From Solwaraspora sp. WMMD792 (GTDB lineage Bacteria > Actinomycetota > Actinomycetes > Mycobacteriales > Micromonosporaceae), in assembly GCF_029626105.1 (NCBI RefSeq), contig NZ_JARUBH010000009.1, positions 2,356,001-2,420,000 of the forward strand: DNA of 64,000 nucleotides. Reading direction: 5' to 3'. The notes beneath the pieces are model-generated. The model was given only the letters and a program-made list of their open reading frames with translations. It made no database searches and had not been told where the DNA came from. Numbering within the stretch: position 1 is the stretch's first letter; each line of letters starts with the position of its first letter. Position numbers and translations under genes: made by a program. Shown here piece by piece: positions 8,020 to 64,000 of this stretch.

Positions 8020-8223
8020 CGCCGCTCCCCTCAGTCGTCCTCCGTCGGTCCACCTGGCGCCAGCATGACCCGTCCACCACCCGCAGGGGATCACCCAGGG
8101 CGGGTGATCCGTGACCGGCAGGAGACGGACGGTAGACCACGGATGCCGAAAGTAACCAGATGAGGCACAATGATTACAGGCCGTATCGGGGGCACGGCAT
8201 GTGCCGAAGCGAAGGAGGCCAAC
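8020..8223. promoter_or_regulatory. Divergent promoter region, debranching enzyme/hydrolase
   Basis: 204 bp between divergently transcribed genes, mostly GC-rich, with an AT-richer pocket at about 8150-8180 (AGATGAGGCACAATGATTACAG) that suits the rightward promoter. No long palindrome was seen. The ribosome site GAAGGAGG at its right end fixes the GTG start of the hydrolase. Confidence 0.4.
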
Positions 8224-9015
8224 GTGAGTCACGACCGCACGGCCGCCGGGATGCGCTACTGGCAGACCGGCCGCGGCCGACAGGACGTCCTGCTCGTACA
8301 CGGGTGGTGCTGTAACCACCGGTTCATGAAGCCACTCGCCGCCCACCTGGCCAGCTGGCGGCGGCGGATCATCTCGGTGGACATGCGGGGACACGGTGCA
8401 AGCCCCGCCGGAGACCGCGGCTTCAGCGTTCCCGAACTCGGTGCCGACCTGCGGGACCTGATGGTCGAACTCGAGATGGACGACGTCGTGCTGATCGGGC
8501 ACAGCATGGGCGGGGTCTGGTCGTTGGCCGCGGCCGCGCAGGCGACCGACCGGGTCGCGGCGCTGCTGCTGCTGGACGCGTCGGTGGCCGTGCCGCCCGG
8601 CACCTCGGAGCAGGTGGCCGCGCTGGCGGAGTCCATCCGCGGCGCGGACCCGCGCCAGGCCCGGATCGACATCATCCGGTCGTTCTTCATTCCCGAGTCG
8701 GACCCCCGGCTGGTCGACTGGACGATCGACCAGATGCTGCGGCCGAGTGACACCGTCGCCGCCGCCACCCTCGACGGTCTCGCCGACTTCGTCGAGGCCG
8801 GTGGCGACGCCGCGCTGACCGCGTGGGGACGCCGGCTGCTCTACATCGGTGGCCCGGCACCGTTCGCCGACTACGGACGGCTCCGGGAGCTCGTGCCCGA
8901 GGCCGTGATCGGCCAGGTGGTGGGCTCGGGCCACTTCTTCCAGTTCGAGGTGCCGCGGCAGACCAACGCGATGGTCAGCCGCTATCTGCGGCTGTGGGGG
9001 CCACCGTCGTGGTGA
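8224..9015 (+). CDS. Alpha/beta-fold hydrolase
   Basis: Cytoplasmic serine hydrolase (esterase, lactonase or haloperoxidase-like). Seen: oxyanion-hole motif LLVHGWCCN, DMRGHGAS, nucleophile elbow IGHSMGG with Ser94, and the C-terminal histidine region VVGSGHFFQFEVP. 263 residues, standard for the family. The start is GTG 8224 because GAAGGAGG lies 5-10 nt upstream; an earlier ATG at 8170 lacks a ribosome site. The 3' end overlaps the convergent epimerase gene by 34 bp. The substrate is unknown. Confidence 0.85.
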   Translation: MSHDRTAAGMRYWQTGRGRQDVLLVHGWCCNHRFMKPLAAHLASWRRRIISVDMRGHGASPAGDRGFSVPELGADLRDLMVELEMDDVVLIGHSMGGVWSLAAAAQATDRVAALLLLDASVAVPPGTSEQVAALAESIRGADPRQARIDIIRSFFIPESDPRLVDWTIDQMLRPSDTVAAATLDGLADFVEAGGDAALTAWGRRLLYIGGPAPFADYGRLRELVPEAVIGQVVGSGHFFQFEVPRQTNAMVSRYLRLWGPPSW

Positions 9016-9899
9016 TCCGCAAGCAGGGCCTTCACCGAGTCCGTCAGGTCGTAGCTGGGTGACCAGCCGAGCACCTGCCGGGCACGGCTGATGTCCGCGC
9101 ACATCCAGGGGACGGCGGCGGACCGGTTCACCGTCGGGGAAAACTCCCCCGTACCGAGTTCGCCGCTGTGACCAGCGGCCCGGGCCAGACAGGTGACCGC
9201 CTCCCGGACCCCGACCGGCCGCCCGCTGCCCACGTTGAACAGCCGGTGCGGCAGGCGGGTGGCGAGCGCGGCGGCGCGGACCGCGGCGGCGATGTCGCGC
9301 AGGTCGACGAAGTCGCGCACGGTGTCCAGCAGCCGCACCGCCAGCGGTGACCGCCCGCCGCAGCGCAGCAGAGCGGCCGCCCGCCCCAGCGCGCTGTCCA
9401 CCGGCAGGCCCGGCCCGACCGGGTTGAACACCCGCAACGTGACGACCTCGACCCGTCCGTCGGTGCTGACCAGTTCGCCGAACTGGGTGGCGGCCAGGTG
9501 GCTGAACCCGTACGGGCTCACCGGCCTGGCCGGATCGTCCTCGCCCACCGGGCGGCCACTGGGCACGACGCCGTACTCGGCGGCGGAGCCGATCCGCACC
9601 AGCCGGGTGCCGGGCACGACGTCGGCCATCGCCTCGGCGAGCGCGGCCACAGCCTGTAGGTGGATCCGGATCAGCTCGGCGTTGTCACCAACGGTGCGGC
9701 CGGCGCAGTTGACCACGACGTCCGGCCGGACGGCCGCGAGCAGCCGGGCGAGTTCGGCCACGCCCGTCGTGGCGAGATCGCAGTCGGCCCGGGTCGGTGC
9801 GGTCACCACCGCGTCCGCCGTGAGCGCAGCGTGGATCTGCCGGCCCAGCAGTCCGGTGGAGCCGAAGAGCAGGATCCTGGTCCGGCTCAACTGCGGCAC
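8982..9899 (-). CDS. NAD-dependent epimerase/dehydratase (extended SDR), YxxxH variant
   Basis: Nucleotide-sugar-type SDR acting in the cytoplasm, presumably with the sugar transferase encoded just upstream. Seen: Rossmann motif GSTGLLG near the N-terminus, VVNCAGRTVGDN, the Ser region IGSAAEYG, and the catalytic-Tyr region SPYGFSHLAATQFGE; then RVFNPVGPG, DFVDLRDIA and FNVGSGRPVGVREA as in GalE/RmlB/RmlD relatives. The SDR YxxxK lysine is a histidine here (YGFSH), which is unusual and may change or abolish catalysis. The ATG overlaps the upstream sugar transferase by 13 bp. The 3' end overlaps the convergent hydrolase gene. 305 residues. Confidence 0.85.
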   Translation of the reverse strand: MPQLSRTRILLFGSTGLLGRQIHAALTADAVVTAPTRADCDLATTGVAELARLLAAVRPDVVVNCAGRTVGDNAELIRIHLQAVAALAEAMADVVPGTRLVRIGSAAEYGVVPSGRPVGEDDPARPVSPYGFSHLAATQFGELVSTDGRVEVVTLRVFNPVGPGLPVDSALGRAAALLRCGGRSPLAVRLLDTVRDFVDLRDIAAAVRAAALATRLPHRLFNVGSGRPVGVREAVTCLARAAGHSGELGTGEFSPTVNRSAAVPWMCADISRARQVLGWSPSYDLTDSVKALLADHHDGGPHSRR

Positions 9900-50095: not shown

Positions 50096-51834
50096 CGCAG
50101 CACCGCCGCTCGGTAGGTCGGATCGGTCCGGACAAGGTCGTGGTGCGGCGCGGTGCCCACCACCCGGCCGGCGGCCAGGACGCAGACCCGGTCGGCCCGG
50201 CTGAGCAGCGCCGGGCTGCTGGTCACCACCAGGGTGGCCCGGGCCTCTGCCGTGACGGCCGGGCTCACCGTACGGCCGTGGCGGGCCGCTCGCAGACCGG
50301 CCGCCAGCCGTTCCTCGGTGGTCGCGTCGACCGCCGTCGTCGGGTCGTGCAGCACGAGGATCGGCGGGTCGGCGGCCAGCGCCCGGGCCAGCCCGATCCG
50401 CTGTCGCTGGCCGCCGGAGAGACTGGCGCCCCGGTCGGTGACCGGATGGTCGAGCCCGGCGGGATGCGCCGCGACGATGTCGTCCGCGCCGGCGGCGCCG
50501 ATCGCCGCCGGTAGCGGGTCCGCTGCCGGGCCGGGCCGGACCAGCAGGTTGGAGCGCAGCGTACCGGCGAACAAGGCCGTGTCGTGCGGTTCGACCAGGA
50601 GGCGTTCACGCAGGCCGTCGAGGGTCAGCTCGGCGACCGGTACGCCGTCCACCGCCACCGTTCCCCGATGGTCGTCGGCGGCGACGGCACCGCGCAGCAG
50701 GTCGAGCAGCGCTTCGGCGTCGCGCGGCTCGTACGCCACCACTGCGAGCAGCTCACCCGCTGTCAGCCGCAGGTCGACGTCGCGCAGCGAGCGGTAGCTG
50801 ACCGCGGTCAGTGTCAGGCGCACCGGCTGCGGCCGGGGCGCCGGACGCTGACCGGGCAGTACGGCGGGCGGTGCGGCGAGCACCCGGGCGACCCGCGCGG
50901 CCGAAGCCCGCACGGCGGCGGCGAGCTGACCGCAGAAGCCGAGGGCACGGACCGGCTCGGCGATGAACTGGGCCAGACCGACCACGGTGATGAACTCACC
51001 GACGCCGATCCGACCCTGGACCGCCATCACGCCGGCCGCACCGGCGACGCCGGCCAGGAGCAGCCCGCTGGCACCGGCGGTGATCCCCTGGTAGACGCCG
51101 GCCATGGTGGTCGCCCGCAGGGTCACCTGGAGGGTGTGCCGGCTCGACTCGCGGTAGCGCCGGGCCGCGTTGCGCTGCGCGCCGAACCCGCGCAGCGCGC
51201 GCAGCCCGTCGACCAGGTCGGTGGCGAGCGCGGTGGTCGCCCCGGCGGCGGCCTGCTGCGCGCCGGTACGCCGGGTGACCACCGGGGCGAGCGCCTGCAG
51301 GGCCAGCACCAGCGCCGGCACGCCGAGCAGGACACCGAGGCCGAGCGGCACGTCGATGGTGAGCAGGACCACGGACGAGACCGCCAGCGCCGCCACCGCG
51401 GCGACGGCGACAGTGGCGGCCCGGATGATCAACGCGGTCCGTTCGGCGTCGGCGGCGGCGATGGCGAGCAGCTCGCCGGAGCGCAGCCCGGTGCGGTGCC
51501 CGCGCGGGTCGAGTGCCCGCCCGGCGACCTCCACCCGGAGCCGGTGGGTTTCCCGGTGGATCGCGGTCTCGGTCAGCCGGGCACCGAACCGCCAGGCGAA
51601 GGTGAGGACGGTGAACAGGGCGGCCAGCCCGGCGACCGAAACCGCGAGCGCGGTCCAGTCGCCGGTCGCGACGGCCTGCTCGACGATCAGTCCGATGGCC
51701 AGCGGTACCGCCGCTTCGGCCGCCTGGTGCAGGCTGAGCAGTGCGACGCCGGCGGTGAGTCGGCCGCGGTGCCGGCGCAGGGTGCGCCGCAGCAGCCGGG
51801 CCGCGGTCAGCGGGGCGGGACGGGGTACGGGCAC
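50092..51834 (-). CDS. ABC exporter half with degenerate Walker A but intact signature motif
   Basis: First half of the heterodimeric exporter. Seen: six hydrophobic segments ([45 protein letters not shown] and others), then an ATPase domain in which Walker A reads [17 protein letters not shown] instead of GxxGxGKST, but the signature [17 protein letters not shown] is complete; Walker B is [12 protein letters not shown], where the catalytic Glu is replaced. 580 residues. GTG with GGAGAGAG upstream. An iron-box-like palindrome lies 58-76 bp before it. Confidence 0.9.
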
Positions 51835-51891
51835 GGCAGGTCTCTCTCCGGCGGGGTCGGTGGCGGGTCCGGCTCACCGACCGGCTACCGG

Positions 51892-51910
51892 TGAGCAGAG
51901 GCTAACCTAA
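51892..51910 (-). promoter_or_regulatory. Putative IdeR/DmdR iron box before the ABC exporter pair
   Basis: TGAGCAGAGGCTAACCTAA matches the consensus TTAGGTTAGGCTAACCTAA at 15 of 19 positions by hand count, with a perfect right half. It sits 58-76 bp upstream of the exporter start, consistent with repression under iron-replete conditions. Confidence 0.62.
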
Positions 51911-51996
51911 GCCGCGACCGGGCTCCATCATCGATCACCGGCACCGGACATGACGGTCGCCACGTTGGGGGTGACATCCGGTCCACCATGAGATAA

Positions 51997-52021
51997 GTTC
52001 TTCTCAGGTTGAGTTGTTCTT
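51997..52021 (+). promoter_or_regulatory. GTTCTT direct repeats before the Nudix regulator
   Basis: GTTCTT at 51997-52002 and 52016-52021, 19 bp apart, inside an AT-rich 60-bp pocket (GAGATAAGTTCTTCTCAGG and TTAGTTAGAGATTTTC). This is the only AT-rich stretch before the operon and includes its promoter; as NrtR-type proteins autoregulate, it is the likeliest binding site. Confidence 0.45.
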
Positions 52022-52055
52022 AGTTAGAGATTTTCTAGCAACGAGAAGGATCGCG

Positions 52056-52874
52056 ATGTCGGAGGCCGAGTTCCTCGCCAGCTACGACCCTCGGGCGTTC
52101 CCGCCGGTCGCCGTCACCGTCGACGTGGTGGCACTGACCATCCGCGACGCGCGGCTGCACGTGCTGCTCGTGCGGCGGGGCGCGCCGCCACACGAAGGGG
52201 CCTGGGCGCTACCCGGCGGCTTCGTCCAGCCCAATGAGGACCTGCCCACCGCCGCCGCCCGGGAGCTCGCCGAGGAGACCGGGCTGGACACCCGGCCCGG
52301 CCGGGCCGCCGCGATGGACCGGGTGCACCTGGAGCAGCTGGCCAGCTACGGCGCACCCGAGCGGGACCCGCGGATGCGGATCGTCTCCGTGGCGTACCTC
52401 GCCTTCGCGCCAGAGCTGCCCGACCCGGCGGCCGGCAGCGACGCCGCCGCCGCGGCCTGGGTGCCGGTGGACGCGCTCGGCCTACCCGAGCAGGCCGACC
52501 CGGACCGGCCGGTACGGCAACTGCCCGGCACCAGCCGGCGGCTCGCGTTCGACCACGCCCGGATCGTCGTCGACGGTCTGGACCGGGCCCGCGCCAAGCT
52601 CGAGTACACCCCGCTGGCCACCCGGTTCGTCGGCGACGAGTTCACCATCAGCGAGCTGCGCGGCGTCTACCAGACCGTCTGGGGCGTCGAACTGCACGCC
52701 GGCAACTTCCACCGCAAGGTGCTGTCCGTACCCGGCTTCCTGGAAAGCGTCGGCGCCACCACCGAACGCGGCGGCCCGCGCGGCGGACCCCGGTCGCGCA
52801 TCTACCGGGCCGGCGACGCCCGGCTGCTGCACCCGGCGCTGCTGCGCCCCGCCCGGGAGGAGGAGGTCAGGTGA
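52056..52874 (+). CDS. NrtR-type regulator: Nudix domain plus winged helix
   Basis: Probable ADP-ribose/NAD-metabolite-sensing transcription factor. Seen: Nudix fold at residues 15-160 with a complete Nudix box GFVQPNEDLPTAAARELAEETGL (residues 55-77, all GX5EX7REUXEEXGU positions present), then a winged-helix DNA-binding part from about 195 (EYTPLATRFVGDEFTISELRGVYQTVWGVELHAGNFHRKVL, SVGATTERGGPRGGPRSRIYRAG), the NrtR C-terminal signature. Many NrtRs have a broken box; this one could hydrolyse. ATG 52056 with GAGAAGGA. 272 residues. First of a four-gene coupled operon, the GTG of the next gene overlapping its stop. Confidence 0.88.
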   Translation: MSEAEFLASYDPRAFPPVAVTVDVVALTIRDARLHVLLVRRGAPPHEGAWALPGGFVQPNEDLPTAAARELAEETGLDTRPGRAAAMDRVHLEQLASYGAPERDPRMRIVSVAYLAFAPELPDPAAGSDAAAAAWVPVDALGLPEQADPDRPVRQLPGTSRRLAFDHARIVVDGLDRARAKLEYTPLATRFVGDEFTISELRGVYQTVWGVELHAGNFHRKVLSVPGFLESVGATTERGGPRGGPRSRIYRAGDARLLHPALLRPAREEEVR

Positions 52875-53878
52875 CCGTGACCGAGGCGATCGAACTCGTC
52901 CTGACCGCGCACCACCCGGCCGAGGTGTTCGGCACCGACCAGACGACCCGGCGCTACCACCAACTGGCCCGGCTGCTGCACCCGGACACCGCCGCGACGG
53001 CCGCACCCGACCGGCGCGCCACCGCCGCGTTCATGCAGCTGACCGAGCTGTGGCGGCGACACCTCGCCGACGGCCGGGACACCGTCACCATCGACACCGG
53101 ACGGCACCGGTACGTCGTGGACCGAACCGCCCGCTACACCGGCGACCTCGCCGACCTGTACCGGCACGGCGACGACCAGTTGGTGAAGGTGCCCCGGGAC
53201 CCGGCCAACAACGACCTGATCGCCCGGGAGGCGACCGCGCTGACCCGGCTCGCCGAGCGGGGCGACCCCCGCTACCTGCCGTACGTGCCCCGGGTGGTGG
53301 ACGAGTTCCGGCACCGGGACACCGGCACCGGCGCCGTCCGGCAGGTCACCGTGCTGGGCACCGCCGCCGGGCTGCGCAGCCTCGCCGAGGTCCGCCGGGC
53401 GTACCCGGACGGGGTTGACGCCCGCGACGCGGCCTGGATGTGGCGGCGGCTGCTGGTCGCGCTCGGCTTCGCCCACCGCGCCGGGCTGGTCCACGGCGCC
53501 GTGCTGCCCGACCACGTCCTCATCGAGCCCGACCAGCACGGCGTGGTGCTGGTCGACTGGTGCTACGCCAGCATCGACGCCGCGCCGGTGCCGGCGCTGG
53601 TCCCGGCGTACGCCGACTGGTACCCCGACGAGATCCGCCGACGCCGCAGTCCCGGCCCCGGCACCGACCTCACGATGGCCGCCCGCTGCCTCGACTGGCT
53701 GACCGGCGGTCAGGCGCCGAAGCCGATGCGCCGGTTCACCGACGGCTGTCAACTGGCGTCGCTGCGGCACCGGCCCGACGACGCGTGGCGGCTGCTCGCC
53801 GAATTCGACGACCTGCTCGAACGGCTCTGGGGCCGCCGCCGGTTCCGGCCGTTCACCATCCCCGACCCCAACCAATGA
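52871..53878 (+). CDS. J-domain-like plus pseudokinase-like protein
   Basis: Not a recognised named protein. Seen: residues about 20-45 look like the third-helix part of a J-domain (TTRRYHQLARLLHPDT, with the HPD tripeptide at 37-39). From about residue 85 there is a protein-kinase/phosphotransferase-like fold: Lys106 in LVKVPRD, Glu120 in AREATALTRL, HGAVLPDHVLIEP where HRD or HGD is usual (catalytic Asp changed to Ala210), and VVLVDWCYASID with Asp229 of the DFG position. The pattern suggests a binding-only pseudokinase, but Asp214 might substitute. 335 residues. Coupled to the Nudix regulator (GTGA). Confidence 0.72.
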   Translation: MTVTEAIELVLTAHHPAEVFGTDQTTRRYHQLARLLHPDTAATAAPDRRATAAFMQLTELWRRHLADGRDTVTIDTGRHRYVVDRTARYTGDLADLYRHGDDQLVKVPRDPANNDLIAREATALTRLAERGDPRYLPYVPRVVDEFRHRDTGTGAVRQVTVLGTAAGLRSLAEVRRAYPDGVDARDAAWMWRRLLVALGFAHRAGLVHGAVLPDHVLIEPDQHGVVLVDWCYASIDAAPVPALVPAYADWYPDEIRRRRSPGPGTDLTMAARCLDWLTGGQAPKPMRRFTDGCQLASLRHRPDDAWRLLAEFDDLLERLWGRRRFRPFTIPDPNQ

Positions 53879-53946
53879 CCCGCCGACCGAACCAACGAGC
53901 CGGCAACTGAGCTGGCGACCCACCCCGACTGAGAAGGAGCCCCGAC

Positions 53947-54915
53947 ATGGGCAGTGGAGCCTGGTCGACCGACGTCTACCGCGCAGCCAGCGCCTACCGC
54001 AAGGCCACCGGCGCCAGCGCGTTCGCCTACAGCGACGGCGGCGCCCGCACCGTCCACCCGACCCTCGACCCGCGCGGCGTCGCCGCCCGGGAAAGCCGCG
54101 ACTCGACCGAGCACCCGCAGTCGCTGGCCGTCGCCGTCCTGTTCGACGTCACCGGATCGATGGGCGGCGTGCCCCGGACGCTGCAGCAGAAGCTGCCGCA
54201 ACTGCTCGGCCTGCTGCTGCGCAAGGGCTACGTCACCGACCCGCAGATCCTGTTCGGTGCGATCGGCGACGCGACCTGCGACCGGGTGCCGCTGCAGATC
54301 GGCCAGTTCGAGTCGGACAACCGGATGGACGACCACCTGGGCAACATCGTGCTCGAAGGCGGTGGCGGCGGGCAGATGATGGAGTCGTACGAGCTCGCCA
54401 TGTACTTCATGGCCCGGCACACCTCGATCGACTGCCACGAGCAGCGCGGCAAGCGCGGCTACCTGTTCGTCATCGGCGACGAGATGGCGTACCCCAAGGT
54501 CAAGGCCCGCGAGGTCCGGAAATTCATCGGGGACGACCTCGACGAGGACGTCCCGCTGCGCGCCGTCGTCGACGAGGTCCGTCGCCGGTGGGACACCTAC
54601 TACCTGATGCCGGCCGGCAGCCACTACGCCGGCAACCGCCGCATCCTCGACTTCTGGCGGGACCTGCTCGGGCAGAACGCCGTCGAACTCGACGACCTGG
54701 ACGCGGTCTGCGAGACCATCGCCACCACCGTGGCGCTCGGCGAAGAGGCCTGCGACCTCGACACCGCCCTGGCCGACCTGCGCGACGTCGGTGCCGGCGA
54801 CGCCGCCACCACCGTGTCGCGGGCGCTCGCCCGCATCGGCACCGGCCGCACCCCCGCGGTACGCGGCACCCTGCCGGCCGCCTCGGGCCACGCCGACCAG
54901 GTGACCCGGCTGTGA
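53947..54915 (+). CDS. von Willebrand factor A (vWA) domain protein
   Basis: Cytoplasmic metal-ion-dependent adhesion domain protein, usually an assembly factor in multi-protein systems. Seen: MIDAS start AVAVLFDVTGSMGG (Asp67, Thr69, Ser71), GAIGDATCDRVPLQIGQFES, GGGGGQMMESYELAMYFMARHTSID, and KRGYLFVIGDEMAYPKV ending the Rossmann-like fold; the C-terminal part (DDLDAVCETIATTVALGEEACDLDTALADL) is helical. No signal or membrane segment. 322 residues. GAGAAGGAG before the ATG. A 68-bp gap separates it from the J/kinase-like gene; its stop overlaps the PurA-like GTG. Confidence 0.83.
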   Translation: MGSGAWSTDVYRAASAYRKATGASAFAYSDGGARTVHPTLDPRGVAARESRDSTEHPQSLAVAVLFDVTGSMGGVPRTLQQKLPQLLGLLLRKGYVTDPQILFGAIGDATCDRVPLQIGQFESDNRMDDHLGNIVLEGGGGGQMMESYELAMYFMARHTSIDCHEQRGKRGYLFVIGDEMAYPKVKAREVRKFIGDDLDEDVPLRAVVDEVRRRWDTYYLMPAGSHYAGNRRILDFWRDLLGQNAVELDDLDAVCETIATTVALGEEACDLDTALADLRDVGAGDAATTVSRALARIGTGRTPAVRGTLPAASGHADQVTRL

Positions 54916-56207
54916 ACCGGGTGGCCAGCAGCATGACCGGGGACGGAACCGACCGGCACATCGCCGTGGTCGACCTCGGCTACGGCGACGCCGGCAAGGG
55001 CACCGTCGTCGACTGGCTGTGCGCGAGCAGGCCGGTTGACGCGGTCATCCGGTTCAACGGGGGCGGGCAGGCGGCACACAACGTCGTCCTGCCCGACGGC
55101 CGGGCCCACACCTTCGCCCAGTTCGGCGCCGGCACCTTCCACGGCGTACCGACGCACCTGTCCCGGTTCGTGGTCGTCGACCCGCTGGCGTTGGCCGGCG
55201 AGGCGACGCACCTGGCCGGGATCGGGGTGCCCGACGCACTGGACCAGGTGACCGTCGACCGGGAGGCGCTGCTGGCCACCCCGTACCACCGGGCCGCGAA
55301 CCAGGCCCGGGAGATCGCCCGTGGGGCCGACCGGCACGGCTCCTGCGGGATGGGGGTGGGCGAGAGCGTACGACATGCTCTCGCCCACCCCGACACCGCG
55401 CCCCGGGTCGGCGACTGCCTCGACGAAGGCCTGCTGCGGCACCGACTGAGGCTGCTGCATGACCGGCTCACCGCCGAACTGGGGCCGCTGGACGCCCCAC
55501 CGGTGGCGGACACCGTCACCGCGTTCACCGCGTTCGCGCGGCGGGTGTCGATCGTCGACCGGTCATGGACGGCCCGACTACTGCGCGCCGGAACCGTCGT
55601 CTTCGAAGGCGCCCAGGGGGTGCTGCTCGACGAGTGGCACGGCTTCCACCCGTACACCACGTGGAGCACCACGACGTACGGCAACGTCGACACGCTGCTG
55701 GCCGAGGCGGGCATGCCCGGTACGGCGACCCGGCTCGGGGTGCTGCGGGTGGTCACCCCCCGGCACGGGCCTGGCCCGCTGGTCACCGAGGACCCGACGC
55801 TGCGGCCGCCGGAACGGCACAACGGCACCAACGCCTGGCAGGGCCGGTTCCGGTTCGGCCACTTCGACGCCGTGGCCCACCGGTACGCCCTCGACGTCAC
55901 CGGCGGCGTCGACGCCCTCGCGTTGACCCATCTGGACCTGGTCGGCCGACACCGGCTACGGCTGTGCGACCGGTACGACTGGACCGACCGGTTGCCGACC
56001 GGGCCGCCCGGTGACCTGGACCGGCAGGCGGCGCTGACCGCGAAGCTGCTCGCCAGCCAGCCGAGCTACGCCGCCGACCCGGAGCCGGACCCGGCAGCAT
56101 GGATGGCGGCGGTCGAGACGGCGCTCGGCGTACCGGTGCGGTTGACCTCGCACGGCCCGGCGGCCGCCGACAAGGTCGCTCGGCTCACTGCGGCGGCAGG
56201 AAGGTGA
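54912..56207 (+). CDS. Diverged adenylosuccinate synthetase (PurA) paralogue
   Basis: PurA normally joins IMP and aspartate using GTP. Seen here: P-loop [15 protein letters not shown] with catalytic Asp26 kept (canonical WGDEGKGK altered), [17 protein letters not shown] replacing [31 protein letters not shown] close to [37 protein letters not shown] where the IMP-binding TTGRxRRCGW is changed, and [10 protein letters not shown] for LTKLDVLDG. 431 residues, near the enzyme's normal length. So the fold and GTP chemistry are probably retained, with a different acceptor. GTG 54912 overlaps the vWA stop; ATG 54933 is the alternative. The 3' end overlaps the next, convergent gene by 23 bp. Confidence 0.82.
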   Translation: [431 protein letters not shown]

Positions 56208-57234
56208 CCTCGGTAGGCCCGCCGCCGGTGATCACTACCGGCGTCGCGCTGTCGAAGTCGGTGCCGCCATGCCAGCTGGTGGTGCCGCCACACAGACACT
56301 GAATCTTGACCTGCTGCCCCAGCACGACCCGGATCCGCACCTTGGAGCCGGAGCCGAGTGATCCGACGCCCACCGACTCACCGGTGGTCACGTTGCGCAG
56401 CACCACCCGGTTGTCCGAGCCCGTCGGCGGGTCAGTGAAATTGACGATGGCGGATACCCCACGCTTGACAGTGAAGTCGATAGGCGAACCACCCGGTACT
56501 GCGGCCTGGATCAGATCAGCCCGCAGTCGGTTGCCACCACCCCCGCTCCACTGGTCCGCTTGGCCGGGGATCCGGAACAGCAGCGGCCACTCGTACGGGC
56601 CGAGCCAGTTGATATTGAAGCTGCCGTCGTAGTAGATCGGACTGGATATAGGCGGAAGCCGATACTCGGGCTCCGGAGCGGAGATCCCGACGGTGCCACG
56701 CTGCCCCGGAGGCGGGACCGGATCCGGCGCCGGGAGCTTCCCCCTGATCGATACACTTCGGTCAATGAAGATCGTCGGCGCCGTCTTGGTCTCACCCGGC
56801 ACCGACACGGTAATCTGCCGAGCCGACTGTTGCGTTCCGGTGCCGCCGGACGGCCCCACCCACTGCGACCCGTACCCGGTGTAGCCAGGCGCACGCGCAA
56901 AAAGGTTGTACGAGCCCGGCACCGACACCTGTACCCTGACCCGCCCCAGCCCGGTCGACGAACTGCAGAGCTCCTGCAAGTTGAAGGTGCCGCGCGCGGG
57001 AACGGCGAAGATGCAAACGCCCTTCATCGGCAGTCCGGTGTCGCGGGCGTACACCCAGGTCTTGATGTACGCATCGGTGGACTGCGCCGCGGCGGCACGC
57101 GCCGGTGGCCCGCCGACAATGGTGACGACGAGGACGGCGATCACGACCGCCACACCTGCCATCCGGAACCAGGCTGTCACCTGACCCTGCCGGCCGTGCA
57201 CCTGACCTGACGATCTCCTACTGCTGCCTGCCAT
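56185..57234 (-). CDS. Secreted four-Cys protein, paralogue 1
   Basis: Unrecognised family. 349 residues: short charged N-terminus, a signal-like segment (MAGVAVVIAVLVVTIVGGPPARAAAA), then beta-rich sequence. The first part resembles a carboxypeptidase-regulatory/transthyretin-like sandwich (DTGLPMKGVCIFAVP). Hallmarks shared with two neighbours: GVC, a second Cys (LQELC), PGSYNLFARAPG, QWVGPSGGTG, WLGPYEWPLLFR, VKIQCLCGG and WHGGTDFDSATPV. GGGGAGAG precedes the ATG. 12 bp after paralogue 2, so co-transcribed. No enzymatic motif recognised. Confidence 0.7.
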   Translation of the reverse strand: MAGSSRRSSGQVHGRQGQVTAWFRMAGVAVVIAVLVVTIVGGPPARAAAAQSTDAYIKTWVYARDTGLPMKGVCIFAVPARGTFNLQELCSSSTGLGRVRVQVSVPGSYNLFARAPGYTGYGSQWVGPSGGTGTQQSARQITVSVPGETKTAPTIFIDRSVSIRGKLPAPDPVPPPGQRGTVGISAPEPEYRLPPISSPIYYDGSFNINWLGPYEWPLLFRIPGQADQWSGGGGNRLRADLIQAAVPGGSPIDFTVKRGVSAIVNFTDPPTGSDNRVVLRNVTTGESVGVGSLGSGSKVRIRVVLGQQVKIQCLCGGTTSWHGGTDFDSATPVVITGGGPTEVTFLPPQ

Positions 57235-57246
57235 GTCGACTCTCCC

Positions 57247-58275
57247 CTACCGCATGTCGATGTTGATGCCGGCGTAGTAGGCGGCAACGACTGGCGTGGC
57301 GTCGGCGAAGTCGGTACCGCCATACCAGCGTGTCCCGTCAGGGCACTGACACTCGATCTTGACCTGCTGCCCACCGATGATGGTCGCTCCGGCCGAGTTG
57401 TGCGACTCATCGAACTCGCCGACCCCCATCACGTCCCTGGTGGCACTGTTGTAGAAGACCACCCGCCCCGGCGGGCCGATCGACAAACTGCGCACCTGGA
57501 CTCGAATACCCGCTCCCCTGAACCGCAACGTGCGGAACGTGTACCGGTCGGCCGAGCCGTCAACGACCGCCGGAACCACCTCGGCGATCAACCGGTTGCC
57601 GACCCGCCCGCTCCACTGTGCCGGACCGTCCTGCGGCCGGAACAGCACCGGCCACTCGTACGGGCCGACCCAGTCGATTTCGAAGGTACCGTCGACGTTC
57701 ACCGGCACGGACCGTTGCTCCCGGTGCACGTCCAGCTGGATCGGCGCGACGGAGACCAGCCCGGAGGGGTCCCCCGCCCAGTGGTCCACCCGACCGCTGA
57801 TCGTGGCGCGGGGATCCAGCAGGATCTGACTCACCCGCTTGGTCTCACCGGTGGTGAGAGTGACCCGCCGGGCATCCTGCTGGCGACCGGTGCCGCCGTC
57901 CAGGCCCACCCACTGGGCACCGTACGGGCTGTCCAGCTTCGGCAGGGCGAACAGGTTGTACTGACCAGGCCCCGGCACCTCCACCGTCACCCGGCCACCA
58001 CCACCGCTACGGGACGGGCACGTATTCGGCAGGCTGAACGTCAGCACCGGCATGGCCAGCACACAGACGCCCTTGACCGGCTCCCCGGTGGCCCGGTCGA
58101 ACACCCGAGTGGTGATGGCAGCGCCAACGTCGCTCTCCGAGGCTGGCACCGCCGCCGCGCCGCTGGTCATCACCACTGCCAGCGCTGCCCCGGCCGCAGC
58201 CGACAACAGCCACCGAGGGTGGCCGGAGCGGACGCCCGACTGGGCGTCCGGAAACCACTGCCTACTGCTCGTCAC
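57247..58275 (-). CDS. Secreted four-Cys protein, paralogue 2
   Basis: Same unrecognised family as its neighbours. 342 residues; signal segment LLSAAAGAALAVVMTSGAAAV, then TGEPVKGVCVLAMP, SLPNTCPS, GPGQYNLFALPKLDSPYGAQWVGLDGGTG, IDWVGPYEWPVLFR, GQQVKIECQCPDG and WYGGTDFADATPV. The four cysteines (GVC, NTC and the CxC pair) are kept. I place the start at GTG 58275, which aligns with the ATG of paralogue 1; a TTG at 58314 would give 13 more residues. It leads the two-gene leftward unit, divergent from the Nramp-like gene. Confidence 0.7.
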   Translation of the reverse strand: MTSSRQWFPDAQSGVRSGHPRWLLSAAAGAALAVVMTSGAAAVPASESDVGAAITTRVFDRATGEPVKGVCVLAMPVLTFSLPNTCPSRSGGGGRVTVEVPGPGQYNLFALPKLDSPYGAQWVGLDGGTGRQQDARRVTLTTGETKRVSQILLDPRATISGRVDHWAGDPSGLVSVAPIQLDVHREQRSVPVNVDGTFEIDWVGPYEWPVLFRPQDGPAQWSGRVGNRLIAEVVPAVVDGSADRYTFRTLRFRGAGIRVQVRSLSIGPPGRVVFYNSATRDVMGVGEFDESHNSAGATIIGGQQVKIECQCPDGTRWYGGTDFADATPVVAAYYAGINIDMR

Positions 58276-58468
58276 TGCCCGCCTGCCGATCCTTCCTGGA
58301 CGTGGAGTAATCAAATGCCTACCACGCGCATGGATGATCGTCGGGGACGCTGGGGCCCGGACAGCCGGCGTGTCGACGAGTGTCCGTCATCCAGGTGTCG
58401 CCGACCGGTGCGTGGGTAGGTCCGGAGAGGTCCGGCCTCCGCTCGAACACGACCCAGGGAAACTCACC

Positions 58469-59959: not shown

Positions 59960-60976
59960 TCACAAGATCAGGTTCAACCAGTCCCGGTGACGAACCCGTA
60001 CCGAGGTGGCCGTCGCGAAGTCCGAACCGCCGTACCAGCGGTCGCCACCCGTACAGCGACACTGGATCTTGACGTGCTGTCCACCGCTGACCCGCAGATA
60101 CCCCCAGGTCGCGTCGTCGCCGATCGCCACGGACCCGACATGCTCGCCGGAACCGGAGTTGTACAGGATTAGCTGCCGGCCGACGCTCGTCGGCTCGTCG
60201 AGGATGTGAACGGTCAACTCGCCGCCGTGCCGCAGCCGGTAGGTTGCCGGCTCCGGGGTGCCGACGACCGCCGGGACGAGGTCTGCCTGGGCACGACCGG
60301 CGACACCACCGCTCCACTGCACGGCGAGGTTGTCGCCCCGGAACACCAACGGCCAGTGGTACGGGCCGACCCAGTCGATGGTGAACGCACCGTCGTCGTC
60401 GATCGGCGTTTCACGCGCGCCGTGGTAGGCACCGGGCGGCGGGGCGGCGACACCGACCACACCGCCGACGATCTCCCCTTTCCTGGGCACCATGTACCCG
60501 GTGATGGTGGCCCGCAGGTCGAGCAGGACCGCCGGCACAGACTTGATCTCGCCGGCCGCCACGGTGATCCGACGGGACTCGGACTGGACACCGGTTCCGC
60601 CGTCCGGTCCAACCCACTGCGCACCGTACGGGCTCCCCGGGGCCGGCAACGCGAAAAGGTGGTAGGAACCGGGCCCCGGCACATCGATCGACACCCGACC
60701 GGTACGGCCGCTGTTCGGCCGGCACTGCGCCGGGATGCTGAACACCCGGACCGGAGTCGCGAACACGCAGACGCCAGCCACCCGGGCACCAGTGTTGCGG
60801 TCGCGCACCCACGTATCGATCCTGGCAGTGTCCGCACTGGCGATCTCCGCACTGGCGGTCTCCGCCGTCCGCGGCCGGTCGCCACGATCGGCGTACGCCG
60901 CGGAAGCAGAGACAACGGTGGCGGAGGCAGCTACCAGCGCCATAACCGTCACGGATCCGAACCCGGCCACTCTCAT
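59960..60976 (-). CDS. Secreted four-Cys protein, paralogue 3
   Basis: Third member of the unrecognised family. 338 residues; signal segment (VAGFGSVTVMALVAASATVVSASAAYA), an Ala/Thr-rich spacer, then GARVAGVCVFATP, SIPAQCRPN, GPGSYHLFALPAPGSPYGAQWVGPDGGTG, IDWVGPYHWPLVFRGD, GQHVKIQCRCTGG and WYGGSDFATATSV. ATG 60976 is preceded by AAGAGGTGACC; an upstream frame to 61150 is hydrophilic and unsupported. Convergent with the Nramp-like gene. Confidence 0.7.
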   Translation of the reverse strand: MRVAGFGSVTVMALVAASATVVSASAAYADRGDRPRTAETASAEIASADTARIDTWVRDRNTGARVAGVCVFATPVRVFSIPAQCRPNSGRTGRVSIDVPGPGSYHLFALPAPGSPYGAQWVGPDGGTGVQSESRRITVAAGEIKSVPAVLLDLRATITGYMVPRKGEIVGGVVGVAAPPPGAYHGARETPIDDDGAFTIDWVGPYHWPLVFRGDNLAVQWSGGVAGRAQADLVPAVVGTPEPATYRLRHGGELTVHILDEPTSVGRQLILYNSGSGEHVGSVAIGDDATWGYLRVSGGQHVKIQCRCTGGDRWYGGSDFATATSVRVRHRDWLNLIL

Positions 60977-61130
60977 GGTCACCTCTTGAACTCGACCTTT
61001 GGGGCGGCTCCGCTCGTCATGTCTCCACTCCGCCCGGTTTTCGCTCATTCTTGCCGGCCGCATGATCGGATGCGCCCCAGCTGACCGTCTCCGGCGTGTC
61101 ACGTCGATGAGACGCAGTGGATCATGGGGG

Positions 61131-63278
61131 CTACTGGTGCCAGTGGACAAAACGCACCGGCTCGGCCAGCACAGCCTGGGCGGATGGCACGTCGGCCAGC
61201 CGGGCCGCCAGGGTCGCTTCGGCCAGCCGGCGCGGCAACGCGGCGCTGAACTTCAACCCGTGCAGGGCCTTCTCGTCGATCTCGGGCAGGCAGATGCGAT
61301 CCGCCGCGTCGCTGGTCGCCGCCAACCAGCCGGACCGGTCGACGCCGTCGCGCAACCGGATGCTGGTGTCGTCGGGCCGCTGCGTGGGATCCGCCAGATC
61401 GCCGATGGTCGCCGCCAGTGTGGCGTTGGCCCGGAACCCGGCCCAGGTCCACCAGCGCAGCTCATCGTGTCCGTCGATGGCGACGACCGTACCACCGGGG
61501 TGCACCAGCCCGGCCGCACCGTCGCGAGCCTCGGCGAGCCGGGAGGTCGCCCGTCGGGTCAACTGGACCGGCGGCACCGCGCCGAGCAGCACCTCCCGCA
61601 TCGCCTGTACGAGCCGGTACGACAACCCCTGGGGGGCGCCACCAGCCAACCAGAGTGCCCGGCCGCCGCGTTCGGCCGGCTCCACGAAGCAGCGACGCCG
61701 ACGCCAGTCGATGTGGGTGACCCGCCAGCTACGACCGCCGAGCAGCAGCAGCCGTGGCCCGATCACCCGCTCGGTCAACAGGTACGGGTCGGTGCGGCCG
61801 ATCTCGGTACGGCCCAGCAGGACGGTGAACTGCGGCGGCGCGGTGAACACCGCCATCATGTCCATGAAGTGGCGCCGGCCGAACCGCAACTCGGCCTCGG
61901 GTCCGATGTGCAGCATGCCGCCGTCGTCGTCGAGATAGCCCTCACTGACCAGATGCCTCAGGATCACCTCTGCGCCGGTGTCGAATGGGGCAAGGCCGTT
62001 CCACTCCTGCGCCCACTGCCGGTCACCGACACGGTGCCGCTGCAGGCAGAGCGCCAGGATCTGCTGGGCGACGATGTGCCGGGGCTCCGGCGGCGCGACG
62101 ATGTCCTCGACCCAGCCCTGACCCCACAGCCGGAGCAGTCCGGCGGCGTGCACCAGGCCCGGTGTGTCCAGCGCGAGGAACAGGCAGTTACGGGTGCCGC
62201 CCGCCCGCCGCCCGGTGCGGCCGATGCGCTGCAGGAACGCGGCGACGGTCCGGGGAGCGTTGATCTGGATCACCCGGTCGAGGTCGCCGACGTCGATGCC
62301 GAGTTCGAGGGTGCTGGTGGAGACGATGACGCAGTCGCGCCCTTCGGCGAAGGCCTGTTCGGCCCGTCGCCGGTCGTCCAACGCGAGCGAGGCGTGCGAC
62401 AGGTACGTGGTGACGCCGGCCAGCCGCAGTTTCTGCCCGAGCTCTTCGACCAGCGCCCGCGAGTCGCAGAACACCAGCCGCTTCTCGCCGCCGTGCAACG
62501 CCGCGATGATCCGGGCCGCGTTGTCCGCCGACCCGACGTAGTCCAGCTCCACCTTCCCGGGCGGCGGTCCCACTGAAGCAGCTCCAGCCGACACCGCTGG
62601 CGCGATCGCGGCAGCGGGCAGGTCCGGAGCGACGACCCTGGCCGGACGTTCACGCCGGCCGGATCCCTGCAGCCAGCTCAGCAGCTCGTCAGGGTTGCCG
62701 ACGGTGGCAGACAGGCCGACCCGTTGCACCGGCCGGCCGGCGACCCGGGTCAGCCGCTCCAACACCGCCAGCAGATGCCAGCCCCGGTCGTCACCGGCGA
62801 AGGCGTGTACCTCGTCGATGACGACCGCACGGACCGACCGGAGAAACTCGTCGTGGTCGACGTTGCGGCTGACCAACATCGACTCCACCGACTCGGGGGT
62901 GGTCAGCAGGACGTCGGGGCGATCCCGGAGAATCCGGCGGCGCTGCCCGGCGGTGACGTCGCCGTGCCACACCGCGGCCCGCCGACCGAGCCAGCCGGTG
63001 TACTGCTCCACCCGTGGCAGCAGGTTGTTCAGCAGCGCCTTCAGCGGGCAGAGATACAGCAGGCCGGGGCCGGACCAGTTCTCCTGAGCCATCCGCGACA
63101 GCAGCGGAAACAGTGCGGCTTCGGTCTTACCGGCGGCAGTGGGTGCCAGCAGCAGCGCGTCGTCGCCGGCGAGCAGCGGAGTGACCGCGCCGGACTGCAA
63201 CGGACGCAACGCCGGCCACTGCAACGAGTTGACGATGTGGTGCAGCAGTACCGGATGCAGCAGGTCGGCGGCGGCCAT
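61131..63278 (-). CDS. brxHI: BREX type 2 Lhr-like helicase (BrxHI)
   Basis: ATP-dependent DNA/RNA helicase of the phage-exclusion system. Seen: Walker A LLLAPTAAGKTEAALFPLL, motif Ia YLCPLKALLNNLLPR, DEAH-like VIDEVHAFAGDDRG, SAT motif GLSATVGNPDELLSWL, then helicase C with STSTLELGIDVGDLDRVIQINAPRTV and FLQRIGRTGRRAGGTRN; a long C-terminal Lhr-type domain follows (LWLAGGAPQGLSYRLVQAMREVLLG). 715 residues. ATG 63278 is linked to the upstream brxD stop by TGATG. It is the last gene of the locus. Confidence 0.88.
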   Translation of the reverse strand: MAAADLLHPVLLHHIVNSLQWPALRPLQSGAVTPLLAGDDALLLAPTAAGKTEAALFPLLSRMAQENWSGPGLLYLCPLKALLNNLLPRVEQYTGWLGRRAAVWHGDVTAGQRRRILRDRPDVLLTTPESVESMLVSRNVDHDEFLRSVRAVVIDEVHAFAGDDRGWHLLAVLERLTRVAGRPVQRVGLSATVGNPDELLSWLQGSGRRERPARVVAPDLPAAAIAPAVSAGAASVGPPPGKVELDYVGSADNAARIIAALHGGEKRLVFCDSRALVEELGQKLRLAGVTTYLSHASLALDDRRRAEQAFAEGRDCVIVSTSTLELGIDVGDLDRVIQINAPRTVAAFLQRIGRTGRRAGGTRNCLFLALDTPGLVHAAGLLRLWGQGWVEDIVAPPEPRHIVAQQILALCLQRHRVGDRQWAQEWNGLAPFDTGAEVILRHLVSEGYLDDDGGMLHIGPEAELRFGRRHFMDMMAVFTAPPQFTVLLGRTEIGRTDPYLLTERVIGPRLLLLGGRSWRVTHIDWRRRRCFVEPAERGGRALWLAGGAPQGLSYRLVQAMREVLLGAVPPVQLTRRATSRLAEARDGAAGLVHPGGTVVAIDGHDELRWWTWAGFRANATLAATIGDLADPTQRPDDTSIRLRDGVDRSGWLAATSDAADRICLPEIDEKALHGLKFSAALPRRLAEATLAARLADVPSAQAVLAEPVRFVHWHQ

Positions 63279-64000
63279 CACAAGTCGTCGAGGGCGATGT
63301 CGTCGGCCCGGGCCGCGTTGCGTTCGACATCGGTCAGCTCGGTGTCGTTGAGCGTGAGCGGGTAGTGCTCCCGGGGCCGGAAGTCAGGCACCTGGTCGAC
63401 CCGGTCGAGCACGTCGACCAGTTTTTTGAGGAACAGCCGGGGGGCCACCCCGACCCTGCCGCCCAGTCCGCCGGCGACGGCGCGGGCGAACTGGGCGACG
63501 AAATCGTCGTCGACGAGCCCGGCGATGCGGTCCGCGCCCGTGCCGGTGGCGCCGACGGCGTACAGGTCACGGACCCGGGTGCCCAGCTCGACCAGTGACT
63601 CGTGGGTGAAGCCGGGGAGCCGGATCTGCACCGCCCGAGGGTTGTCGAACCTCGGGTCGGCGGTGAAGTCGACCGCCAGCCGCTGGGCCAGCGGGGCGAG
63701 CCGCTGCACCCCCTGCGGTCCGTCGTAGAACGCCGGTGTGCCGGTGATCAGCAGATACAGCCCGGGGAACCGCCCGGAGTGCACTTCGTCGATGAGTTGC
63801 CGCAGCGCGTTGAGCGCCTTGTCCCTGGCGTCGGAGCGGACCCGTTGCAGGGTCTCCACCTCGTCGAGCACCAGCAGCAGGCCGGGGTGTCCGCTGTCGC
63901 GCAGCACCACCAGCAGGCCCTGCAGGAAACTCAACGCGGCGAAGTGGTCGAGGTCGCCGCGTACCCCGGCGGCCCGGCGGGCGGCGGCGGCCACGTGCGG
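63278..64000 (-). CDS. brxD: BREX ATP-binding protein BrxD (N-terminus cut by right edge)
   Basis: P-loop ATPase of type 2 BREX. Seen: the C-terminal 241 residues, with Walker B GLLLVLDEVETLQRVRSDARDKALNALRQLIDEV, GLYLLITGTPAFYDGPQGVQRLAPLAQRLAVDF, sensor arginines in PRAVQIRLPGF, and APRLFLKKLVDVLDRV, a BrxD-type end. Walker A lies outside the window. In type 2 BREX (Pgl) brxD and brxHI close the pglW-X-Y-Z set, so further genes are expected to the right. Confidence 0.87.
   Translation of the reverse strand, partial: PHVAAAARRAAGVRGDLDHFAALSFLQGLLVVLRDSGHPGLLLVLDEVETLQRVRSDARDKALNALRQLIDEVHSGRFPGLYLLITGTPAFYDGPQGVQRLAPLAQRLAVDFTADPRFDNPRAVQIRLPGFTHESLVELGTRVRDLYAVGATGTGADRIAGLVDDDFVAQFARAVAGGLGGRVGVAPRLFLKKLVDVLDRVDQVPDFRPREHYPLTLNDTELTDVERNAARADDIALDDL

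Follow-up and report, generated by a model that had tools for sequence, protein, structure and literature searches.

A vWA, J-pseudokinase and PurA-like gene module, shared with phages, under a predicted local repressor in Solwaraspora

Introduction

What does an operon make in which a diverged relative of adenylosuccinate synthetase (PurA) follows a Nudix regulator, a J-like plus kinase-like protein and a vWA protein? The question arose in Solwaraspora sp. WMMD792, in a window of 64,000 nucleotides (contig NZ_JARUBH010000009.1, positions 2,356,001 to 2,420,000, forward strand), whose numbering is used below. The initial annotation noted that PurA makes nucleotide-aspartate adducts and suggested that the operon makes or modifies a nucleotide-like product under NAD-linked control, possibly in a stress, signalling or anti-phage pathway. 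It knew of no named system with these genes, and within the open-access literature we likewise found neither a named system nor a description of the four-gene set. In PHROG the four proteins correspond to separate entries that are not linked to one another, namely phrog_1211 (PurA), phrog_3043 (kinase), phrog_2971 (unknown) and phrog_1198 (Nudix).

Results

Inspection of the open reading frames in the window showed four genes in head-to-tail order on the forward strand (52056-56207), encoding the Nudix/winged-helix, J-plus-kinase-like, vWA and PurA-like proteins. Genes 1 and 2 share a GTGA overlap at 52871-52874 and genes 3 and 4 another at 54912-54915, while 68 bp separate genes 2 and 3, so that the operon of linked genes first described is real. 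An alternative ATG start of the PurA-like gene lies at 54933. The window held no Rfam match at gathering scores, and a scan of 51800-56400 found no sigma-70 promoter or terminator.

The last gene (54912..56207, +) encodes a predicted non-canonical PurA-family ligase, with a WQG motif (55836-55844) inside the aspartate-binding loop. The protein matches PF00709 at 3.9e-57 and scores below the cut-offs of the PurA equivalogs (149 vs 402 bits for PRK01117, 111 vs 396 bits for TIGR00184) and of the PurZ model (33 vs 300 bits); its scores place it with neither enzyme. A separate, ordinary purA of 596.5 bits is present in the same genome (C9:5741518-5742768), which rules out that the PurA-like gene is the only purA and agrees with its annotation as a diverged paralogue. 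Equivalents of the catalytic residues are kept (D13 and K16 in 167/167 rows each, H41 in 166/167, Q224 in 162/167), as is the guanine-site D333 in 161/167. In the loop, T300 is replaced by W/F/Y/H in 154 and T301 by Gln in 158 of the 163 ungapped rows, replacements that also appear in a residue table of 34 sequences, and the combined (W/F/Y/H)-Q-G at T300-T301-G302 is found in 144/163. Furthermore, V273 is His in 162/167 rows and N38 is Gln in 165/167, and phosphate-pocket residues are altered in the PurA-like clade. Since the aspartate loop is largely remodelled, a nucleotide-aspartate adduct is doubtful; given the altered phosphate pocket, the nucleotide substrate may differ as well. Nevertheless, the changed residues alone do not prove a new amine, because the window protein has an Arg directly after WQG that phmmer aligns to PurA R303 (MAFFT places a gap there). 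R303 contacts aspartate in PurA, and Arg occupies this position in 35/163 rows.

The second gene (52871..53878, +) carries an HPD motif at 52979-52987, and HGA replaces HRD at 53492-53500. Taken alone, the window protein matched DnaJ (0.0054) and Kdo (0.012) below the Pfam cut-offs. Among 40 members of its family, DnaJ was matched in 21 (best 2.2e-25) and Pkinase in 22 (best 3.7e-12), and the structure model has helices at residues 3-67 followed by a kinase fold; the structural matches include J-PKA chimeras, all of which bears out a J-like plus kinase-like protein. HPD is kept in 135/150 rows. The HRD catalytic Asp is found in only one of the 149 ungapped rows and is absent from the other 148; by this criterion the kinase-like domain is a pseudokinase, as first annotated. 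Residue columns were drawn at first from the 117 kinase rows with a usable start, and the key columns were repeated on all 150.

The vWA assignment of the third gene (53947..54915, +) held as well. Its product had no Pfam or NCBIfam match at E 0.1 and matches phrog_2971 at 3.3e-74. Its model (pLDDT 88.9) moderately resembles integrin I/vWA folds, with TM-scores of 0.41-0.47 by query length and Foldseek E values of 1.8e-7 to 4.3e-6 for the 50 matches listed, nearly all of which are integrin beta I domains. The MIDAS (D-x-T-G-S, DxSxS-type) is present in 167/169 rows and reads DVTGSM in the window (54145-54162); PLQ.GQFE and EGGGGG stretches are also conserved.

Do these genes belong together? 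In Micromonosporaceae, the family of the window's strain, 74 of 150 genomes carry the vWA gene and precisely these 74 carry the PurA-like gene, so that these homologues are not scattered independently of one another, as would have spoken against a system. We compared the top 80 from each of two sets, at least 566 bacterial and 238 viral relatives. PurA was found in 79 of the bacterial loci, J/kinase in 78 and Nudix in 78; among the viral contigs the respective numbers were 78, 64 and 2, so the core is present in phages too. In both sets each best match shares its strand with the vWA gene, and a chance neighbourhood is ruled out by this co-occurrence. On these comparisons of sequence, a core of three genes (J-domain/pseudokinase, vWA and PurA-like) travels together in bacteria and large phages. 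Each core protein matched 188-190 Mycobacterium/Mycolicibacterium phage records (188-189 for Mycobacterium only), whose sameness across the three proteins was inferred from the counts, not record by record; three of the 207 phage records were examined individually. For the vWA protein the Mycobacterium count is 188, joined by 10 phage records from Rhizobium and 6 from Vibrio; plasmid copies were present in 21 records, 8 of which were read. The J/kinase gene left no trace within reach in 16 of the 80 viral loci, in two (L030 and L031) of the three phage isolates examined and in two Hamadaea loci, and plasmid locus L029 has no PurA. In a phylum sample with five candidates scored per genome, vWA occurred in 2/396 genomes, including the window's own. 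With the window's vWA sequence alone as query, a scan of viral sequences gave no match, whereas an alignment-based search did.

Module PurA proteins form one clade, with support of 98/98 in a tree with phiVC8 PurZ (ordinary PurA rows L229 and L232 not included) and 100/100 in a tree rooted on ordinary PurA (six ordinary rows only; PurZ, L154, L160 and L193 left out). The clade stands apart from phiVC8 PurZ, which is represented by one very long branch. With ordinary PurA as the root, three label changes are required for the bacterial copies among viral ones; this tree is weak inside (of its 59 branches 16 are starred and 19 open, and the bootstrap had not settled), and its starred branches force two changes only. 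The operon is probably phage-derived and captured, judging from these trees.

The first gene (52056..52874, +; Nudix box 52218-52286) matches NUDIX (1.2e-21) and NrtR_WHD (1.9e-9), both above the Pfam cut-offs, and its product is predicted to be a local repressor of the operon. The Nudix R/E/E/E positions are retained in 79/85 rows, that is in the window and all 78 bacterial loci with the gene; they are lost in 5/5 plasmid rows and altered in L134, and the strict full signature is matched by 57/84 only. A predicted double operator, CTCA-N4-GAG-N5-CTTA-N4-GAG (52003..52029, +), lies 26 bp 5' of the Nudix ATG. We examined 79 upstream stretches, from the window and the 78 loci with a Nudix start; the pattern CTYA-N4-GAG-N5-CTYA-N4-GAG occurred in 60/79 of these actinobacterial stretches vs 1/3745 controls, and a relaxed pattern in 65/79 vs 3/3745, the controls being stretches from random positions in these loci rather than promoters. 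The spacer was 5 in 60/60. Separately added shuffles gave 0/15800 for the upstream stretches and 0 in 100 for the window. The operator has a single occurrence in the whole genome, at the Nudix-headed operon, and is absent from all five plasmid loci tested. We know of no earlier description of such a double operator. By its distribution, the Nudix gene is an add-on of the bacterial copies, accompanied in actinobacteria by the double operator.

NAD-linked control, as first suggested, was not supported: like the NrtR regulators of NAD genes, the module regulator combines Nudix and an NrtR winged helix, but it reaches 105 bits where the equivalog cut-off is 400, the operon has no NAD gene and the operator occupies one genomic site. 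NAD-related genes do lie near some phage cores (NadV in L134, NadA and NAD kinase in L191, a Nudix gene in L030). We regard this context as a lead and not as evidence, because it comes from just three phages and, according to the available part of PMC9503650, medium and jumbo phages carry NadV, taken by itself, in 22-33% of cases.

Among further neighbours, an ORF that is homologous among phages and scores as R2K ATP-grasp lies 3' of PurA in 14/80 viral loci, and these loci are one phage group with near-copies included. No extra family was present in more than 14 loci as a fifth conserved gene among the phage flanks. From the phage flanks 96 of 175 candidate ORFs were scanned, and the lists obtained cover the first 25 families each, out of 48 in Pfam and 114 in PHROG. 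In the Solwaraspora genome, BrxHI and BrxD genes are located 5 kb downstream of the operon; a BREX-linked component was rejected, since these match nothing in the other loci compared apart from a weak helicase match in L050.

Discussion

We propose, with a probability of roughly 0.4, that the operon is a phage module that was captured and placed under a repressor of its own, and that it would encode a GTP-dependent ligase acting at C6 of a purine with an amine that is not aspartate. The PurA-like protein, driven by GTP, would transfer phosphate to the 6-oxo group of a substrate that bears hypoxanthine, and the amine would displace the phosphate to yield an N6-substituted purine compound. The vWA and J/pseudokinase proteins may be partners that assemble or gate the ligase, and the J/pseudokinase protein could recruit DnaK. 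Phage copies would be active during infection; in bacteria the repressor would silence the module and release it once stress or infection brings up a nucleotide or ADP-ribose-like ligand. The fuller version of this proposal is more tentative, and we consider it doubtful as a whole: a third branch of the PurA family, separate from PurA and PurZ, would make a novel N6-substituted purine nucleotide or conjugate on a vWA and J-pseudokinase scaffold, with which large phages would reshape the infected cell, and bacteria would have captured it two or three times, with a dedicated repressor in actinobacteria.

An unlikely alternative in our judgement is a bacterial stress or anti-phage operon, whose ligase would make a signal or toxic nucleotide on an infection-linked ligand, phage copies then being counter-measures or decoys. 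The patchy spread in the family and the phylum sample, the plasmid copies and the nearby BrxHI and BrxD would suit it, and the ARG-centric predicted conflict systems, for which such logic has been proposed, also combine a Nudix-HTH regulator and a vWA protein in one operon (available part of PMC9503650). Unlike these, the module has no ADP-ribosylglycohydrolase among its four proteins, and that account, in its available part, mentions no PurA, J domain or pseudokinase. Moreover, the conserved set has no toxin-like effector, BrxHI and BrxD lack counterparts elsewhere beyond the one weak helicase match, and the many mycobacterial phage records fit use better than defence. In PADLOC 2.0.0 the vWA and PurA-like proteins had no match at E 0.1, the other two gave low-scoring kinase and Nudix matches only, and no named defence system was matched by the operon genes. 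The suggested anti-phage role was thus not borne out.

The chances are poorer for an isozyme of ordinary AMP supply, in which the PurA paralogue, with chaperone-like helpers, would still make adenylosuccinate for high nucleotide demand. Nucleotides are needed by phages, about 57 kb upstream there is a second purB-like gene, and the protein shares with the PurA of E. coli and of its own genome the family, the catalytic Asp, Lys, His and Gln and the guanine-site Asp; an Arg also follows WQG in the window protein and in a minority of rows. In contrast to PurA, however, most of its aspartate loop and its phosphate pocket are changed, R303 is not conserved, V273 and N38 are replaced almost throughout, the equivalog scores are far below cut-off, and the module protein has its own clade and fixed partners. 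We know of no ordinary purA so strictly linked to a vWA gene. A pathway of phage DNA-base modification, akin to the PurZ (2-aminoadenine) route and with bacterial copies as relics, seems quite improbable. PurZ/PurZ0 of Z-genome phages is indeed a precedent for a phage-borne PurA paralogue that remakes phage adenine, and some RefSeq phage records name the gene 2-aminooxy adenylosuccinate synthetase. PurZ has other partner genes, though, and Ser for the catalytic Asp in all 147 phage sequences (available part of PMC12884076), whereas the module clade keeps Asp throughout; the clade is also apart from phiVC8 PurZ, long as that single branch is, and bacteria retain the module with an operator of its own.

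Hundreds of bacterial and phage sequences carry the module, and the phages of Mycobacterium smegmatis bring it within reach of an ordinary laboratory host, while the operator offers a clean handle on the operon's inducer. PurZ, to our knowledge the branch of the PurA family most recently understood, brought a second alphabet of DNA to light; another branch, whose amine pocket is rebuilt and whose protein partners are fixed, would lead one to expect a new nucleotide-like product. Ter systems and TerY kinase-vWA triads also join a vWA and a kinase-like protein with a nucleotide-making enzyme. The module differs from them in that none of its four proteins is a Ter protein and its enzyme is PurA-like; a likeness to these triads is a PRTase_3 gene near the core in one Rhizobium phage.

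Operon structure and linkage

The initial annotation had claimed a four-gene run with GTGA overlaps or short gaps, and four open reading frames indeed fill 52056-56207 on the plus strand, with GTGA overlaps at 52871-52874 (genes 1/2) and 54912-54915 (genes 3/4) and a 68 bp spacer between genes 2 and 3. Pfam assigned NUDIX and NrtR_WHD to gene 1 and PF00709 to the PurA-like gene 4; gene 2 gave DnaJ and Kdo matches only, both below cut-off, and gene 3 (vWA) had no Pfam match. The proposed J-like plus kinase-like nature of gene 2 was borne out by its structural model (pLDDT 92.8), which matches PknA/PknB and J-PKA chimeras, while integrin I-like domains are the matches of the vWA model (pLDDT 88.9). 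PHROG relatives were found for the Nudix/winged-helix (phrog_1198, 5.3e-24), J/kinase-like (phrog_3043, 4e-47), vWA (phrog_2971, 3.3e-74) and PurA-like (phrog_1211, 5.3e-73) proteins. The PurA-like gene is not the sole purA of the genome, since an ordinary purA lies elsewhere (596.5 bits versus 193.5 for the PurA-like gene), 3.3 Mb away. In six genomes of the genus g4 (G003, G045, G065, G082, G107, G122) this distance is about 9-18 kb. A second purB-like gene, barely above the TIGR00928 cut-off (329.5 versus 326.2 bits), precedes the operon by about 57 kb (contig C9 of the window's genome, 2349859-2351139).

The vWA gene was detected in 74 of 150 sampled Micromonosporaceae genomes, and co-occurrence was confirmed by a separate PurA-like search, in which precisely these 74 scored strongly; the remaining 76 yielded either no match or a weaker one resembling ordinary purA. 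Its presence is patchy, because it occurs in 7/7 genomes of the genus and in about half of the family sample but in only 2/396 genomes of the phylum sample (five candidates scored per genome), namely that of the window and another member of the family. From a species-genome scan with at least 566 vWA relatives we examined the best 80, each titled as an actinobacterial record, and from an IMG/VR scan the best 80 of 238. Near the vWA gene of these bacterial and viral loci, respectively, we found a PurA-like gene in 79/80 and 78/80, a J/kinase gene in 78/80 and 64/80 and a Nudix gene in 78/80 and 2/80, the best match of each on the vWA strand. It is thus virtually certain that the four linked genes form a module; as most phage loci are without the Nudix gene, we place it outside the core activity.

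The bacterial loci devoid of PurA or Nudix (L079, L035, L063) end at contig ends. Two Hamadaea loci (L058, L059) have the order Nudix-vWA-PurA; just 14 and 57 bp separate the Nudix match from the vWA match, too little for a J/pseudokinase gene, which may therefore be dispensable. Among plasmid loci (8 of 21 records), PurA was present in 7/8, J/kinase in 7/8 and Nudix in 6/8; in plasmid locus L029 no PurA gene was found within the 12.8 kb examined, and its vWA copy (6001-7029) is annotated as a TonB-dependent receptor. All three phage isolates examined carry vWA and PurA, and the Mycobacterium phage alone the J/kinase gene. Deposited phages with vWA comprise 207 records (188 Mycobacterium, 1 Mycolicibacterium, 10 Rhizobium, 6 Vibrio and 2 others), and the phage nature of a few viral loci is backed by neighbours such as terminase, tail-sheath stabiliser and UvsX. 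PMC9476963 lists kinase and PurA-like genes as subcluster-unique and conserved in C1 mycobacteriophages, in a passage that draws no link between the two.

Operator and regulator

The double operator CTYA-N4-GAG-N5-CTYA-N4-GAG was identified in 60 (relaxed pattern, 65) of the 79 upstream stretches from actinobacteria, compared with 1 (relaxed, 3) of 3745 random stretches of the same loci. Shuffling the upstream stretches 15800 times gave no match, and the spacer is 5 in 60/60 sites. In the window it occupies 52003-52029, 26 bp 5' of the Nudix ATG, and is the sole exact site in the whole genome. These counts and the single genomic site therefore support predicted autoregulation by the Nudix/winged-helix protein, of which binding and sign are likewise predictions, and we consider such local control very probable. 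None of five plasmid upstream stretches (Rhodococcus, Tsukamurella, Agrobacterium, Rhodovulum, Rhizobium) contained the operator. Residues R/E/E/E of the Nudix domain are retained in 79/85 rows (the window and all 78 loci), lost in 5/5 plasmid rows and altered in the viral contig L134. Given this loss and a strict full signature in only 57/84 rows, Nudix hydrolysis is not a shared function.

The PurA-like ligase and its partners

The PurA-like sequences of the module form a single clade (support 98/98 with 38 rows and 100/100 with 62 rows) against six ordinary PurA sequences only, joined in the 38-row tree by one very long PurZ; by this comparison the ligase stands as a branch of its own within the PurA family. 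In E. coli PurA numbering, 167 rows retain Asp13 (167), Lys16 (167), His41 (166), Gln224 (162) and the guanine-site Asp333 (161). Among 163 ungapped rows, T300 is replaced by W/F/Y/H in 154, T301 by Gln in 158 and G302 is Gly in 156, all three together forming [WFYH]-Q-G in 144; moreover, V273 is His in 162/167 and N38 Gln in 165/167 rows. Residues other than R303 were placed in the aspartate and phosphate pockets following the E. coli literature. The residue after WQG, Arg in the window protein and 35/163 rows and mixed otherwise, was aligned to R303 by phmmer and not by MAFFT. According to PMC8342488, R303 touches aspartate and ribose and its PurZ counterpart is likewise displaced, so R303 alone decides nothing. 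A changed amine is somewhat favoured for this ligase. In G084, G098 and G104 (family genomes), the PurA-like match falls in two pieces of a single open frame, as if by an insert of about 30-40 residues.

RefSeq phage records (e.g. NC_054718, NC_067270) name the gene 2-aminooxy adenylosuccinate synthetase, a PurZ-like name that the predicted active site does not support: PurZ has Ser for Asp13 (our alignment and PMC12884076), whereas the PurA-like branch keeps Asp13. PMC12884076 assigns 251 of 767 PurA homologues to the E. coli group and 151 to the PurZ group; the 365 left by subtraction may include the clade of the module.

In the J/kinase protein, HPD is retained in 135/150 rows and the catalytic Asp is missing in 148/149 ungapped rows; the best DnaJ E-value in the family is 2.2e-25 and the J domain is evident by eye in the aligned viral members L124 and L140. 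The vWA alignment contains D-x-T-G-S in 167/169 rows and conserved stretches PLQ.GQFE, EGGGGG and GDE. A fixed vWA lysine could have served as the amine of the ligase, which is argued against by the lack of Lys among invariant or near-invariant vWA columns.

Linkage, residue patterns and operator were established by comparison, and beside them we infer a mechanism in which GTP would activate a 6-oxo group, a non-aspartate amine would displace it, the vWA and J/pseudokinase proteins would assemble or gate the PurA-like enzyme and a nucleotide or ADP-ribose-like ligand would relieve the repressor. We assign this mechanism as a whole a probability of roughly 0.4. To our knowledge, no known kind of system has a PurA-type ligase accompanied by both a J-domain pseudokinase and a vWA protein, although each of the folds is familiar by itself. 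Searches of the open-access literature turned up no description of the set. Nearest in logic are ARG-centric systems (PMC9503650), Ter systems and PurZ.

Origin and neighbouring genes

In a tree rooted on ordinary PurA, explaining the bacterial copies among the viral ones takes three changes of label (actinobacteria, a Variovorax plasmid and alphaproteobacteria), of which starred branches compel just two; 19/59 inner branches are open, the bootstrap had yet to converge and miscalls among the IMG/VR contigs are possible. For these reasons we treat capture of the bacterial module from phages as likely and not as demonstrated, and we moderately favour a phage origin.

In one phage group (14/80 viral loci, some mutual copies) a homologous ORF starts between 34 bp before and 598 bp after the PurA frame end. 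The three that were scanned individually are R2K ATP-grasp proteins, and R2K models match 5/96 phage flank proteins. PMC4431377 describes R2K enzymes as predicted peptide ligases of phage-host conflict. These neighbours hint that the ligase product is extended further with amino acids.

Viral contig L134 (416 kb) carries a nicotinamide phosphoribosyltransferase gene (7940-9346) between vWA and PurA, and its Nudix gene adjoins vWA. Adjoining NadA and NAD kinase genes lie near the core in the 363 kb viral contig L191 (10010-11846). In Rhizobium phage locus L030 (2981-4454), HAD-like (as annotated) and PRTase_3 genes precede vWA-PurA, a pairing known from Ter systems.

On the minus strand of the window, 56185-57234, 57247-58314 and 59960-61150 encode three proteins, likely with a signal peptide, that share stretches by eye and are interrupted by a membrane-protein-like ORF on the opposite strand. 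Genes of a BREX-type system, BrxHI (PADLOC 1060 bits) and BrxD (376 bits), are recorded at window 61131-63994 and in L234, 5 kb downstream of the operon; in the window's genome more long ORFs follow beyond the window end.
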